Assembly: GCA_012798955.1 (NCBI GenBank)
Contig: JAAZMF010000146.1
Coordinates: 1-35,740, forward strand
Direction: 5' to 3'
DNA from: Bacillota bacterium
Lineage (GTDB): Bacteria; Bacillota; Limnochordia; DTU087
DNA: 35,740 bases
Part shown: positions 5,341 through 29,194 of the stretch, in pieces
Position numbering within the stretch: the first letter of the stretch is position 1
How the letters are laid out: each line of letters starts with the position of its first letter
The notes under the pieces: model-generated
Told to the model about the DNA's origin: nothing
The model's input: the letters and a program-made list of their open reading frames with translations, nothing else
Database searches by the model: none
Position numbers and translations under genes: made by a program

Positions 5341-5691
5341 GTGGATATCACAACGAGACGTGTGGGACGAACCCTAATTGTGGCCCTAGAAGGCGAATTA
5401 GATTTGGCTACGGCTCCAGCGGTGAAAAGCACAGTGGATGCGGCTTTGGCCAATGATGCCAGATTGCGTCACCTGATTTGGGATTTGGAGAAGGTGGGGT
5501 TTATTGATAGCTCGGGACTTGGCGTAATCTTGGGGCGCTATAAAAAGATCCAGGCGAGAGCTGGGGCTGTAGTAGCCATCCGTGCCTTAGATCCTGTCCG
5601 CCGCATGCTGGTAATGGCGGGTATGGAGCGCATTATACAGTTTGCTGATTCTGAGGAGCAAGCACTAGCGGAGATTGGGGGAAGACACTAA
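5341..5691 (+). CDS. spoIIAA: Anti-sigma-F factor antagonist SpoIIAA
   Basis: SpoIIAA is the STAS-domain anti-anti-sigma factor that, when dephosphorylated in the forespore, displaces SigF from SpoIIAB. The 116-residue protein shows the STAS core and the phosphorylation loop FIDSSGLGVILGRYK; Ser58 corresponds to the serine phosphorylated by SpoIIAB in Bacillus. The GTG start at 5341 is supported by GGAGGG at 5329-5333 seven bases upstream. Its stop overlaps the ATG of spoIIAB (TAATG), so the two are translationally coupled. Length and motif match the family exactly; the call is secure also from the spoIIAA-spoIIAB-sigF order. Confidence 0.96.
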   Translation: MDITTRRVGRTLIVALEGELDLATAPAVKSTVDAALANDARLRHLIWDLEKVGFIDSSGLGVILGRYKKIQARAGAVVAIRALDPVRRMLVMAGMERIIQFADSEEQALAEIGGRH

Positions 5692-6131
5692 TGGAGACTG
5701 CCAACAATCAAGTCATAATGCAATTTCCCAGTAAGGCGGCGAATATTGGTTTTGCCAGAACAGCTGTGGCTTTATTTGCTGCTCAGCTGGATTTTACTTT
5801 GGACGAATTGGATGAAATAAAGATAGCGGTGTCTGAGGCGGTATCCAATGCTGTGATCCATGGATACAAGGGGACCGAAGGATTAGTTACAGTCACTTGC
5901 ACCCTCATAGAAGGTCTTCTAGAAATACACATCAAAGATGAGGGCATAGGTATTGCCGATGTAGCCAAGGCCTTTGAGCCTGCTTTTACAACTGAGCCAG
6001 ATGAACGCATGGGCCTGGGATTAGTGTTTGTCAAAGAGTACATGGATGAGCTCGTCATTGATTCCTCATTAGGCAAGGGTACATCCCTTACCATGAGAAA
6101 ATCCCCGTGGCAGACTAAGGTGGGGGCATAG
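5691..6131 (+). CDS. spoIIAB: Anti-sigma-F factor and serine kinase SpoIIAB
   Basis: SpoIIAB holds SigF inactive in the predivisional cell and phosphorylates SpoIIAA. It is a GHKL-fold ATPase of 146 residues. The N box is SEAVSNAVIHGY (Glu49 as the likely catalytic base, Asn53 binding magnesium), the G1 box is DEGIGI (83-88) and the G2 box is MGLGLVFVKEYMD (107-119). It begins one base inside the spoIIAA stop codon and is followed 12 bases later by sigF, the usual three-gene operon. No unusual substitutions are seen in the nucleotide site. Confidence 0.96.
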   Translation: METANNQVIMQFPSKAANIGFARTAVALFAAQLDFTLDELDEIKIAVSEAVSNAVIHGYKGTEGLVTVTCTLIEGLLEIHIKDEGIGIADVAKAFEPAFTTEPDERMGLGLVFVKEYMDELVIDSSLGKGTSLTMRKSPWQTKVGA

Positions 6132-6143
6132 GGAGAGATTATT

Positions 6144-6908
6144 ATGCCAGGAGGGTTGGGCAAAATCCAGCTCCCGCCTACACCTAATTTGACTGCAGAA
6201 GAGATTCGTTATCTCTTAGGACATGCCCAGGCGGGGGATGTGAAGGCAAGAGAGCATTTAGTTAACAGCAATTTGCGTCTAGCCATGAGTATCGCAGGAC
6301 GATTTCGAGGTAGAGCAGACTTTGAGGACATATTCCAAGTGGCATGTGTGGGGCTAGTTAAGGCTATTGACCAATTTGACTTATCCTATGACGTAATGTT
6401 CTCCACCTATGCTGTTCCGGTTATTATGGGGGAGATACGTCAATTCTTGCGGGACGGAGACCCTGTTAGAGTTAGCCGACGGCTTAAGGAAAGGGCGGCA
6501 AGGACGGCTGAAGTTCGAGATGAGCTAGAACAGGAGTTGGGCCGGGCCCCTACCCTGGGGGAAATCGGTGCTAAGCTAGATCTCACCGGTGAGGAAATCG
6601 TAGAGGCCCTTGAGGCGGTGGCACCAATTGCATATTTTCAAGATGTGATACATCAAGATGAGGATTCCCCTGTATTGCTTCAGGATAAGCTAGGACGAGA
6701 TGCGGAATCCGATGTTTGGGTGGAAAACTATGCACTGAAGCAAGTTTTTGACCGGTTGCCCCATAGGGAGCGCACTATTGTGCAATTGCGCTTCTTAGAG
6801 GAAAGGACTCAAAGTGAAGTCGCCGAGGAATTGGGAATTTCTCAGGGTCAGATTTCCCGATTGGAGAAACGGATTCTAGGGATTTTGCGGGAGTGGCTCA
6901 TTGAATAG
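6144..6908 (+). CDS. sigF: RNA polymerase sporulation sigma factor F
   Basis: SigF is the first forespore-specific sigma factor. The 254-residue protein has sigma region 2 (REHLVNSNLRLAMSIAGRF, DIFQVACVGLVKAIDQFDLSYDV, FSTYAVPVIMGEIRQFLRD), region 3 (RRLKERAART onwards) and region 4 with a helix-turn-helix (QSEVAEELGISQGQISRLEKRIL). SigG looks similar, but position directly after spoIIAB and the DLSYDV sequence favour SigF. Start ATG 6144 has GGGAGAG about seven bases upstream. No T-tailed terminator is visible after it; GTCCCATGGGAC (6933-6944) is a perfect 12-base palindrome in the following gap. Confidence 0.95.
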   Translation: MPGGLGKIQLPPTPNLTAEEIRYLLGHAQAGDVKAREHLVNSNLRLAMSIAGRFRGRADFEDIFQVACVGLVKAIDQFDLSYDVMFSTYAVPVIMGEIRQFLRDGDPVRVSRRLKERAARTAEVRDELEQELGRAPTLGEIGAKLDLTGEEIVEALEAVAPIAYFQDVIHQDEDSPVLLQDKLGRDAESDVWVENYALKQVFDRLPHRERTIVQLRFLEERTQSEVAEELGISQGQISRLEKRILGILREWLIE

Positions 6909-26462: not shown

Positions 26463-26491
26463 CCTCCCCTAGAGCAAAATCGGGGGTTTTT
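26463..26491 (+). terminator. Rho-independent terminator after hfq
   Basis: CCTCCCC (26463-26469), a loop, then CGGGGG and TTTTT (26487-26491). The GC pairing is short but the T-run is clean. It closes the miaA-hfq unit. Confidence 0.7.
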
Positions 26492-26498
26492 CATTTAA

Positions 26499-26527
26499 AC
26501 ACATTCCTCGATTCAGCTACATATATA
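26499..26527 (+). promoter_or_regulatory. Candidate sigma-E-like promoter of the spoVK cassette
   Basis: ACACATT (26499-26505), 14 bases, CATATATA (26520-26527) match 5/7 and 6/8 of the Bacillus sigma-E consensus. It is the first possible start after the hfq terminator, about 40 bases before spoVK. Bacillus spoVK is a mother-cell sigma-E gene. Confidence 0.38.
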
Positions 26528-26564
26528 TATTAAGGTACGAATATGGTCTCCGTGGGGTGGCAGG

Positions 26565-27530
26565 ATGCAGCCTAAGAATTTAGCGCCGATGACCATGGAT
26601 GAAGTGTTGGAATGGTTAGAACTCGGCCGGATTTCATCGGCTGAGGCCTTTGCTCTTTTTCAGGCCATGTCCCGATGTGCTGAGCTGGCCACATCAGTGA
26701 CCAGTGACTCTGAAGAACAGCTAAAGGATGTTTTGGCAGAGCTTGATCGGCTGATCGGGCTTGGTGAAGTCAAACAGCTGGTCCGGGAGATTCAGGCATT
26801 TGTGCAGATTCAAAGGCGCCGGGCAGCAGAGCAACTAGTGACCGAACCTTTGGTATTACATACGATTTTTCGGGGAAATCCAGGCACCGGGAAAACCACT
26901 GTGGCGAGGGTTTTGGGACGGATGTATCGCCATATGGAAGTCTTACCTAAAGGTCATCTAGTTGAAGTTGAACGGGCCGATTTGGTGGGAGAGTATATTG
27001 GCCATACAGCCCAAAAGACCCGGGAACAGATACGCAAAGCCATGGGTGGTATTTTATTTATTGATGAGGCCTATTCCCTTGCTCGGGGTGGTGAGAAGGA
27101 TTTTGGGAAAGAGGCTATTGACGCCTTAGTAAAGGCTATGGAAGACCATAAACAGGAATTTGTCTTGATTTTGGCCGGGTACACCAATGAAATGGAGTTT
27201 TTCCTGCAAAGTAATCCTGGGCTGCGCTCTCGGTTTCCTCTGCACATTGATTTTCCCGACTATAATGCCAATGAACTTCTGGCCATAGCTGAACTGATGC
27301 TAGATCAACGGCAATATCGCTTGACAGAACGGGCCCGTCGTCGATTAGCACTGTTGATTCAAAAAGGGTTGAGAGTAGAGGCATATAGCTTTGGCAATGC
27401 CCGCACTGTACGGAATTGGATAGAGCTTGCTATTCGCAGACAAGCAGTACGATTAGTGCAAAGACCCGGTGAGATGACCCGTAAGGATCTACTATACATT
27501 GAAGCCGAGGATTTCGGGGAGGGCTGGTGA
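26565..27530 (+). CDS. spoVK: Stage V sporulation protein K, CbxX/CfxQ AAA+ ATPase
   Basis: SpoVK is an AAA+ ATPase needed for spore maturation; its substrate is unknown. The 321-residue protein starts with a short helical region (1-50), then the conserved ELDRLIGLGEVKQLVREI segment, Walker A GNPGTGKTT (104-112), EVERADLVGEYIGHTAQKT, Walker B ILFIDEAYSL, sensor VLILAGYTNEM and a RSRFPLHIDFPDY arginine-finger block. These are the marks of the CbxX/CfxQ subgroup. As in Bacillus it lies downstream of hfq. Its stop overlaps the next gene (GTGA), beginning a four-gene coupled set. Confidence 0.92.
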   Translation: MQPKNLAPMTMDEVLEWLELGRISSAEAFALFQAMSRCAELATSVTSDSEEQLKDVLAELDRLIGLGEVKQLVREIQAFVQIQRRRAAEQLVTEPLVLHTIFRGNPGTGKTTVARVLGRMYRHMEVLPKGHLVEVERADLVGEYIGHTAQKTREQIRKAMGGILFIDEAYSLARGGEKDFGKEAIDALVKAMEDHKQEFVLILAGYTNEMEFFLQSNPGLRSRFPLHIDFPDYNANELLAIAELMLDQRQYRLTERARRRLALLIQKGLRVEAYSFGNARTVRNWIELAIRRQAVRLVQRPGEMTRKDLLYIEAEDFGEGW

Positions 27531-28141
27531 GATTGAAGCAGTGTGTCATCATTGGCAAAGCCAATGTAGGAAAAACCCTCTTTGCCATCAATTTCGCCAG
27601 TTATTTGGGTATATCCAAACTAGAGATAGAGTTTACCACCCCCGGTGGGGAGGTCTATAGGCGCGCCCTTCCCTACGGGGAGGCACTGGAAGAATTGACG
27701 AGTGATCAGCCCCACCATACTTTGGGGCTACAGAGCATAAACATTAAGATGCCTGGATTTAAGGGCCAAAAGCATTTTGCCTTGGTAGATACCAGTGGGC
27801 TGACTGAAGGGATCCACGGGGAATCACTGGTGCGTAAAGCCATGGCTCAGACTCTAGCTCAAGTTAGACATGCCCAGGTGATATTGCACCTAATCGATGC
27901 TGGTAGTGTGGGCAAAGTTGGCACCATTCGGGCGATGGGAGAGGTGGATTGGCAGGTGGCGCAATTTGGGGGGATGCGCCAAGGCTATGCCATCTTGGTT
28001 AACAAGATGGATCTCGAGGAGGCACGCCAAGGGTTGGTGCAGGTTCGCCAGGATTTCCCTGGCCACTTAATCATCCCCATATCTGCCCTGCAGAGGCTGG
28101 GATTTGCCGAGGTGAAGCAATTTGTCTGGCGTCATCTTTAA
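27527..28141 (+). CDS. Small GTPase of unknown role
   Basis: The 204-residue protein is a TRAFAC-type small GTPase. G1 is GKANVGKT (10-17), G3 is DTSG (88-91, Ser for Gly compared with the usual DTPG or DTAG), G4 is NKMD (159-162) and G5 is ISAL (185-188). A G2 threonine may be in the EFTTPGG stretch. There is no KH, MMR_HSR1-plus-extension or HflX domain. In Bacillus this position after spoVK is held by hflX (ynbA), so this may be a functional or positional substitute. It starts at GTG 27527 or TTG 27533; GGGGAGG (27517-27523) is nine bases from the TTG and three from the GTG. Its last 20 bases overlap the next gene. Confidence 0.82.
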   Translation: MRLKQCVIIGKANVGKTLFAINFASYLGISKLEIEFTTPGGEVYRRALPYGEALEELTSDQPHHTLGLQSINIKMPGFKGQKHFALVDTSGLTEGIHGESLVRKAMAQTLAQVRHAQVILHLIDAGSVGKVGTIRAMGEVDWQVAQFGGMRQGYAILVNKMDLEEARQGLVQVRQDFPGHLIIPISALQRLGFAEVKQFVWRHL

Positions 28142-28754
28142 TGGGCTGGCTACCTACCTACGACTTTTTGTAGCTTGTCTGTCCACTGGTATTGCCATCA
28201 AGATCATGGACGATTACATAGATGGACCTTGGGATGCCTTGATCGGTCAGAAAACTTGGGCGGCAGGGTTAAAAGAGGCTGCTCTGCCTTATGCCCTTAT
28301 GGCCCTTTGCTTGGGGTGTTTAGCCGATTCCACTTGGGCAGTGACGTTTTTTTGGGCAAGCTATGCGGTAGGTATGCGAGGAGATCTAATTAGGCCGCTG
28401 GCGTTGGGTCTTACCGGCTGGCAGGAGGTTGCCCTTGCGGGCGTTGTGATTTATTTGACTTGTGGCGGGTACGCCATGTTTACATCTTGGGCAGCAATCT
28501 TTGTGATGCAATGTATTGATGATCTGCTGGATCAAAGCCTAGATAGAATGTCCGGAGCCCACAATTGGGCTACCAAATGGGGAAAAGTAGAGATAGGAAT
28601 TAGCCTGGCGATTGCTTTGGTGGTATTAGCTCAGTTGCATCCTGTTAAATTGATCTTGGCGCTTGTTAGCTATGCTTTGATCGCTTTTTTGCTGCGCCCA
28701 AAGCATAGTATGGGAGGCGAAGCCGGTGTGGATGGCAATATCGTGCCTAGCTAG
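28122..28754 (+). CDS. Integral membrane protein with two aspartate-rich motifs
   Basis: I do not recognise a named family. The 210-residue protein has about six hydrophobic segments. After the first (8-28) comes MDDYID (Asp30, Asp31, Asp34, then Asp38), and after the fourth comes IDDLLDQSLD (Asp133, Asp134, Asp137, Asp141). Two DDxxD-type motifs at equivalent positions after a membrane helix are the pattern of UbiA-type prenyltransferases, where they hold magnesium and diphosphate. The protein is shorter than usual UbiA members (about 280-300), so it could be a compact relative or an unrelated metal-dependent membrane protein. The TTG at 28122 is well supported: GAGGTGA (28109-28115) lies six bases upstream, inside the GTPase gene. 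Confidence 0.65.
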   Translation: MSGVIFNGLATYLRLFVACLSTGIAIKIMDDYIDGPWDALIGQKTWAAGLKEAALPYALMALCLGCLADSTWAVTFFWASYAVGMRGDLIRPLALGLTGWQEVALAGVVIYLTCGGYAMFTSWAAIFVMQCIDDLLDQSLDRMSGAHNWATKWGKVEIGISLAIALVVLAQLHPVKLILALVSYALIAFLLRPKHSMGGEAGVDGNIVPS

Positions 28755-29001
28755 TATGCTCTTGGGTTTTGCTCTTGGTCGCAGGCTCGGGATCGTGCAA
28801 GGGTTCGAGTTGGGAGTTGCCTATGGTAGGTTGGATTTGCGTAGGCAAAGCCTGGAGAAAGGCAAGTGCGCCATATGCATGCTGGAGGCTCCCAACACCG
28901 GTGAGTCAGATAAGGAAGGGCAGCTTTTTATTTCCCAAAATAATAAGGGGTCTAACCAAGATGAAGGTTCCGGAGTCGACATATCGTCTTGTGATATTTG
29001 A
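28726..29001 (+). CDS. Small membrane protein with a CxxC motif
   Basis: The 91-residue protein is not one I can name. It begins with a hydrophobic helix (about residues 3-18), a LGRRLGIVQGFELGVAYGRLDLRRQSLEKG segment that looks conserved, and a Cys48-Ala-Ile-Cys51 pair, then a Ser/Asn/Gly/Asp-rich tail. The motif may bind a metal alone or with a partner or be a redox pair. GGGAGG (28712-28717) lies eight bases before GTG 28726, within the previous gene, and the two genes overlap by 29 bases. The dapL promoter overlaps its last codons. Confidence 0.6.
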   Translation: MWMAISCLASMLLGFALGRRLGIVQGFELGVAYGRLDLRRQSLEKGKCAICMLEAPNTGESDKEGQLFISQNNKGSNQDEGSGVDISSCDI

Positions 29002-29016
29002 GCCTTGGTGTATAAT
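28989..29016 (+). promoter_or_regulatory. Vegetative promoter for the dapL leader
   Basis: TTGTGA (28989-28994), 16 bases, perfect TATAAT (29011-29016). Transcription would start near 29023, about 170 bases before dapL. Confidence 0.6.
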
Positions 29017-29020
29017 TTTA

Positions 29021-29194
29021 GGAGACAATCACGGTAAAAGCAATGATATACGTGGAACGGGGCAGGATGTCATCGGTCGATATGGAATTTGTCTATGGAG
29101 CCCGCTAGAGGCTTCGTATTCGAGCTCGTTTTTAAGGAGGGGGAAAGCGGCTAAAAGGGCAAGGGCTGCATGTCTGACTTAGCCGCAATATGAT
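29021..29194 (+). promoter_or_regulatory. Structured 5' leader of dapL (unidentified)
   Basis: The stretch between the promoter and dapL contains AGACAA/TTGTCT (29023-29028 with 29089-29094) as a possible closing helix, a T-tailed hairpin ending at 29133, then a strong AAGGAGG (29134-29140), and a perfect eight-pair stem GCGGCTAA/TTAGCCGC (29147-29154 with 29179-29186) placed between that site and the dapL start. A seven-codon frame (29170-29193) ends one base before the dapL ATG. The layout suggests attenuation or a riboswitch. It does not match a class I know, and it could also be a separate small RNA of about 110 bases. Confidence 0.4.
29108..29133 (+). terminator. Possible intrinsic terminator inside the dapL leader
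   Basis: GAGGCTTCG (29108-29116) pairs with CGAGCTC (29121-29127) over seven pairs with two bulged bases and a TATT loop, followed by GTTTTT (29128-29133). Confidence 0.5.

Follow-up and report, generated by a model that had tools for sequence, protein, structure and literature searches.

The window, which is the whole 35,740-nucleotide (nt) stretch of contig JAAZMF010000146.1 from a Bacillota bacterium of the Limnochordia (GCA_012798955.1), contains a block of four overlapping genes that begins with spoVK and continues with genes for a guanosine triphosphatase (GTPase), a membrane protein, and a small protein with a CxxC motif. In the reading of the sequence and its open reading frames (ORFs), all four genes lie on the + strand within the order mutS-mutL-miaA-hfq-[spoVK, GTPase, membrane protein, CxxC protein]-aminotransferase-metGL-speD. 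An earlier sequence-only reading had described overlaps of 4 nt (spoVK/GTPase), 20 nt (GTPase/membrane protein), and 29 nt (membrane protein/CxxC), with ribosome-binding sites inside the preceding genes, and both the overlaps and the three sites (27516-27523, 28109-28115, and 28712-28717) are borne out. The features of the block are the following:

26499..26527, + strand: conserved promoter-like element ACACATT-N14-CATATATA, upstream of spoVK and kept in 11 family genomes.
26565..27530, + strand: spoVK, an AAA+ ATPase of the SpoVK/CbbX clade, 321 amino acids (aa), assigned by TIGR02881.
27516..27523, + strand: ribosome-binding site of the GTPase gene, GGGGAGGG, inside spoVK, seen in the sequence.
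27527..28141, + strand: stand-alone TRAFAC (Era/HflX/Obg/FeoB-type) GTPase, 204 aa, GTG start, assigned by MMR_HSR1, the G1-G5 motifs, and an AlphaFold2 (AF2) model.
28109..28115, + strand: ribosome-binding site of the membrane-protein gene, GAGGTGA, inside the GTPase gene, supported by synonymous constraint.
28122..28754, + strand: probable seven-helix UbiA-like membrane protein, TTG start, assigned by family alignments, Pfam, and the AF2 model.
28712..28717, + strand: ribosome-binding site of the CxxC gene, GGGAGG, inside the membrane-protein gene, seen in the sequence.
28726..29001, + strand: small single-pass membrane protein with GxxxGxxxG and CxxC, 91 aa, GTG start, supported by the class search and conservation.

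A second possible start of the GTPase is the in-frame TTG at 27533; its ribosome site is better spaced, and its use would remove the 4-nt overlap. Chance ORFs were ruled out, as the proteins are conserved phylum-wide (GTPase identity is 75% in the nearest relative), and a recently transferred cassette was ruled out, as the cassette keeps the conserved gene order of the region.

The strongest single result is the synonymous constraint at the ribosome site embedded in the GTPase gene. In 68 of 77 loci of other genomes, the best membrane-protein start, as chosen by a script that favors starts with a good ribosome site, gives an overlap of exactly 20 nt with the GTPase gene; these starts are mostly TTG and are preceded by a Shine-Dalgarno match. 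The site itself is encoded by the conserved Glu-Val-Lys codons of the GTPase. The Glu-Val codons read GAGGTG in 56/67 genes, where codon use elsewhere in the same gene predicts 10.7, and GAGGTG occurs in 58/70 cases at the embedded site versus 5/32 at a conserved GEVD control in the same gene (p 9e-11). Furthermore, T is the last base of the following Phe/Tyr codon in 62 of 63 genes (38 expected), the TTG/ATG start is kept even at high G+C content, and where Ile, His, Val, or Leu occupies the start-encoding position, the codon usually still gives TTG or ATG. Sulfobacillus, in which the searches found no membrane protein, has GAA GTC at these positions and has lost the start codon. Conservation of the GTPase protein alone does not explain the GAGGTG and start bias. 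The coupling has been selected: an embedded ribosome site and start codon, both under selection, link membrane-protein translation to the GTPase. Non-conservation of the overlaps in relatives had been named as a ground for rejecting the module, and the 20 nt kept in most loci and the constrained codons speak to the contrary. The proposal that the overlapping genes are made together thus holds for the GTPase and membrane protein, whereas the overlap between the membrane-protein and CxxC genes is variable (49/73 loci overlap, with a median of 4 nt).

The distribution of the genes was followed at three levels. In the class, single-sequence searches of 41 genomes found the membrane protein in 32, the GTPase in 38, SpoVK in 39, and the CxxC protein in 29, some of the weak GTPase and SpoVK matches being other GTPases or AAA proteins. 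Profile-based annotation placed all four genes in 33 of the 38 fetched class loci. In four loci from two families (L101-L104), spoVK stands alone, the other three genes having been lost together, and one locus is a short contig with the last two genes only. A dapF-like gene follows spoVK in L103. In a wider scan with one genome per species, 80 loci were found, all labeled as Bacillota, lower taxa thereof, or unspecified bacteria, and most of them have all four genes in order. For instance, the four-gene order was seen in Thermosediminibacter, Tepidanaerobacter, Halothermothrix, a Thermaerobacter metagenome-assembled genome (MAG), Geosporobacter, Anaerophilus, Thermohalobacter, two Alicyclobacillus, and a Negativicutes MAG, and in Sulfobacillus and Anaerosolibacter, spoVK and the GTPase gene alone were found. 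Many further MAGs show the same four-gene order. In many lineages (for example, loci L169, L170, L172, L179, L185, L192, L195, and L199), an hflX-like gene lies directly after the CxxC gene and before metGL, which places the cassette between spoVK and hflX.

Among 300 genomes of the phylum, the membrane protein was found in 68, the GTPase in 73, SpoVK in 200, and SpoIVA in 249, with a GTPase threshold of E <= 1e-20 that was chosen after a gap in the scores had been seen (1.7e-24 to 1.1e-18). None of the 300 genomes has the membrane protein without the GTPase. SpoIVA is present in all GTPase-positive (73/73) and all membrane-protein-positive (68/68) genomes, and neither protein occurs in the 51 SpoIVA-negative genomes (p 1.4e-7 and 4.8e-7, uncorrected for relatedness). 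The GTPase, membrane-protein, and CxxC genes are therefore inherited almost as a set and are confined to genomes that carry spoIVA; a spread into non-spore-formers, the other ground named for rejection, was not seen among these genomes. The host of the window is itself a spore former by gene content, because its genome holds sigG and spoIVA. The linkage is close: the GTPase and membrane-protein genes lie within 200 nt of each other in 66/68 genomes, and spoVK and the GTPase gene lie within 300 nt in 49 of the 54 phylum genomes with coordinates. In genome G078 (C21:57570-61682), the GTPase and membrane-protein genes are about 3 kb apart. SpoVK is present in 72 of the 73 GTPase-positive genomes versus 122 of the 176 other SpoIVA-positive genomes. 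The expectation that the partners co-occur with and adjoin spoVK in spore formers is thus largely upheld, with the qualification that spoVK is unlinked in 5 of the 54 genomes, so that this linkage is common rather than obligatory.

The ATPase is best matched by TIGR02881 (E 3.5e-123, 409.7 bits), with CbbX next at 281.5 bits, and has an AAA+ core with an AAA lid (PF00004 and PF17866) in a firmicute that is sporulating by gene content. Its score falls below the curated equivalog cut-off of 422.95, a cut-off that appears too strict here, since only 33 of the 200 phylum genomes matching at E <= 1e-90 exceed it. It belongs to the same AAA+ family as SpoVK of B. subtilis, also a spore former. The B. 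subtilis region reads spoVK-ynbA(hflX)-ynbB and is not known to hold the GTPase, membrane-protein, or CxxC genes, whereas three extra overlapping genes come after spoVK here. The sequence-only reading had considered the substrate of SpoVK unknown, a view that has been superseded: according to a 2023 preprint, SpoVK is a mother-cell AAA+ chaperone that activates MurG, the enzyme making lipid II, at the outer forespore membrane, and is confined to sporulating firmicutes (PMC10659427).

The GTPase matches MMR_HSR1 (E 4.4e-9), and its G1-G5 motifs (GxxxxGK(T/S), Thr65, DxxGL, NKxD, and SA) are conserved in 26 aligned GTPases. The AF2 model (predicted local distance difference test score, pLDDT, of 90.8) is closest to the G domains of Era, FeoB, and HflX, and its best Foldseek match is Era 3iev (E 7.9e-9). 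The protein shares the G-domain fold and motifs of Era, HflX, Obg, and Der, but it is a bare 204-aa G domain that lacks the KH, HflX, and Obg domains and the second G domain of these TRAFAC relatives. It scores below every NCBIfam cut-off and fits no named family, in agreement with its earlier description as uncharacterized. A functional tie between a small GTPase and a polytopic membrane protein is what it would share with FeoB, by analogy only; in this case, the two are separate genes, and the membrane protein gave no sequence match to FeoB.

The membrane protein had been described as a double-DDxxD protein; the two Asp motifs are present, but they are DxxxD motifs in what is likely a short, divergent, and internally repeated relative of UbiA rather than a canonical member. 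In a family-wide scan, PF01040 was the commonest Pfam match (20/33 class members, best E 2.7e-9), and it also matched 17 of 46 phylum-wide members, with one family member above the cut-off (37.2 vs 34.2 bits). The first and second halves of the family proteins both match the C-terminal half of PF01040, which makes the protein resemble one half in duplicate. When profiles were compared, canonical UbiA proteins from the same genomes matched the family over motif 2 at E 1.9e-5 (alignment A1). The phylum-wide alignment A4 gave a weaker result (E 5.8e-4, probability 29%) that pairs motif 2 with UbiA motif 1 and therefore adds little beyond the internal repeat.

Eight residues are invariant in 77 proteins, namely, D28, D32, Y55, G82, M83, E100, D131, and D135 (numbering begins at Gly3 of the protein with the TTG start, following alignments A1 and A4), which include the two DxxxD motifs, a Tyr, and a Glu. 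D139 is mostly kept. Losses affect either motif 1 (its third Asp) or both motifs (the second Asp of each) in L091-L092 and L095-L100. In L091, L092, and L093 (family f6), the membrane protein lacks the second Asp of each motif with both DxxxD pairs kept, and the GTPase is also divergent (35% identity). The AF2 model (pLDDT 92) consists of seven long helices. Four of these separate the two DxxxD motifs, as in canonical UbiA proteins. Both motifs would face the cytosol if the N terminus is outside. The likeness to UbiA (PF01040), whose Asp-rich motifs have the forms N/DxxxDxxxD and DxxxDxxxD, consists of two such DxxxD motifs that are predicted to lie on the same side of the membrane, separated by approximately 103 residues and four helices; a G-x2-N-x-A-x3-G pattern that follows motif 2; and a weak profile match in many members. 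The protein differs from UbiA in its length of approximately 200 aa, in seven predicted helices instead of nine, in two halves that both resemble the UbiA C-terminal half, in an Asp in motif 1 where UbiA has Asn, and in the absence of the conserved Lys/Arg after the conserved Tyr (YxxGM vs YxxxKR). It is called UbiA-like and not canonical because of the helix number, the Asp for Asn in motif 1, and non-significant Foldseek matches.

The CxxC protein has one N-terminal membrane segment with GxxxGxxxG, followed by CxxC; the motif is 95% conserved, and the three core Gly residues are 96%-100% conserved. A 137-aa ORF in another frame (window 28769-29182) overlaps its gene and is probably spurious.

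The signals in front of the unit fared less well. Upstream of spoVK, 11 family genomes conserve the element ACACATT (26499-26505), 14 nt, and CATATATA (26520-26527) in slightly varied form, so that part of the claim of a sigma-E-like promoter stands; the resemblance to sigma-E sites does not, since the 5 mismatches of 15 to the B. subtilis-type consensus are equaled or bettered by 272 of 500 random 130-nt stretches of the window. A genome-wide search for near-exact copies gave two other sites (one forward and one reverse; control one and zero) and hence no regulon signal, and upstream of spoIVA, no comparable element was seen, a consensus scan there being uninformative. The element is compatible with a sporulation promoter, and sigma-E control is not established. 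The terminator proposed at the front of the unit, a C-rich/G-rich stem with a T-run after hfq (about 26466-26490), is less well supported: its fold is no better than that of shuffled sequences (z -0.07), and a terminator scan with a loop limit of 8 nt did not report it.

Elsewhere in the window, three successive ORFs of 116, 146, and 254 aa (5341-6908) resemble spoIIAA-spoIIAB-sigF; the last of them (6144-6908) is a sigma-factor gene, probably sigF, and the second-best sigG-family match in the genome.

Taken as a co-translated, sporulation-linked module, the cassette is very probably real. The four-gene block is probably part of spore building, because it is kept across distant spore formers and absent from the sampled SpoIVA-negative genomes. 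The earlier proposal of a membrane-associated spore-maturation module is thus supported in its linkage, co-inheritance, restriction to spore formers, translational coupling, and conserved residues of a putative active site, all of which were computed, but the function of the partners is still a matter of interpretation.

In the mechanism proposed, the mother cell would make the module, which would sit at the outer forespore membrane, on the side facing the mother cell. There, SpoVK would activate MurG for cortex synthesis and remodel an enzyme or enzymes. If the membrane protein is UbiA-like, a polyprenyl-diphosphate ligand is indicated: between the two DxxxD motifs, the protein would bind Mg2+ together with a polyprenyl (di)phosphate, and it would process or present this lipid. 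The most plausible candidate is the undecaprenyl carrier or a related prenyl lipid specific to spores. The co-translated GTPase may serve as its switch or assembly factor, and the CxxC protein as its small, probably metal-binding membrane partner. We infer the location, ligand, direction of the reaction, role of the GTPase, and any contact with SpoVK or MurG. As a whole, this mother-cell module, in which a GTPase-controlled UbiA-like protein handles a polyprenyl (di)phosphate near SpoVK and MurG, is tentative, somewhat short of an even chance. A more specific version is doubtful. In it, a new, short, internally repeated UbiA-type membrane enzyme, switched by the GTPase, would act at the forespore surface on the undecaprenyl carrier (or another polyprenyl diphosphate), either processing or delivering it, alongside SpoVK and MurG in cortex building, as a lipid-carrier branch of sporulation that B. 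subtilis lacks.

Several points weigh against this mechanism. The membrane protein of the window, searched alone, had no Pfam hit and gave nothing convincing in NCBIfam and the PDB, so the UbiA link is weak for this particular protein; its model has seven helices, not the nine transmembrane helices of UbiA; and Foldseek found no significant match among solved structures, the best being a soluble prenyl-diphosphate synthase (E 0.3), with UbiA 4tq4 listed at E 1.0 and a TM-score of 0.34. The polyprenyl-phosphate ligand and the suggested involvement in the MurG lipid pathway rest on analogy, the substrate of MurG being a polyprenyl-diphosphate lipid. In addition, the co-occurrence counts ignore phylogenetic relatedness, the surrounding block (mutSL-miaA-hfq, hflX, and metGL) also holds non-sporulation genes, and some lineages carry the three genes away from spoVK, with L178, L184, L185, and L204 having no spoVK in the locus. 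The GTPase is not universal in spore formers, since 176 of the 249 SpoIVA-positive genomes lack it, and most spore formers sporulate without the three genes.

Of the other explanations, the best surviving one is that the GTPase, UbiA-like, and CxxC proteins make a spore-specific prenylated lipid or quinone (terpenoid) and share an operon with spoVK for timing, with no part in MurG or cortex-lipid work. UbiA relatives are prenyl transferases or terpene cyclases, the three genes can sit apart from spoVK, and many of these genomes also hold canonical UbiA proteins, which would leave a separate job for the cassette protein. Nevertheless, this explanation is unlikely, as the enrichment of SpoVK among GTPase-positive genomes goes beyond timing alone, and no isoprenoid gene was noticed among the neighbors, which are annotated in part. 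Still less probable is a non-catalytic membrane complex, in which the DxxxD protein would be a degenerate UbiA scaffold or transporter and the GTPase would drive assembly or gating in the manner of FeoB. A free GTPase coupled to an adjoining polytopic membrane protein does resemble a split FeoB, FeoB G domains are among the best fold matches, and the motif Asp residues lost in some lineages fit degeneracy, but FeoB matches are common to every TRAFAC GTPase, and the eight invariant residues, among them four Asp, a Glu, and a Tyr, have the look of catalytic or ligand-binding positions. A housekeeping unit with no sporulation role, near spoVK merely through the old mutSL-miaA-hfq-hflX-metGL block, which is indeed conserved and includes non-sporulation genes, is improbable given the absence of the GTPase and membrane protein from SpoIVA-negative genomes (a count uncorrected for relatedness) and the persistence of the set in spore formers even when unlinked from spoVK.

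In the literature searched, with subscription journals outside its scope, no paper was found that describes the four-gene set or joins SpoVK with UbiA. A UbiA protein goes unmentioned in the text of the SpoVK/MurG preprint, whose Figure 3A shows SpoVK-clade operons including a 'ZnBd' protein, and part of the arrangement may be drawn there (PMC10659427).

The preferred reading, a sporulation module next to SpoVK, concerns three uncharacterized proteins that are kept by deep spore-former lineages and tied to SpoVK, and whose ligand is probably a polyprenyl lipid. Most of what is known about sporulation comes from B. subtilis and a few clostridia. The cassette clearly illustrates how synonymous selection can preserve, throughout a phylum, a ribosome site and a start codon that lie within the preceding gene, and it offers a testable link that may join the SpoVK/MurG step of cortex assembly to lipid-carrier chemistry.

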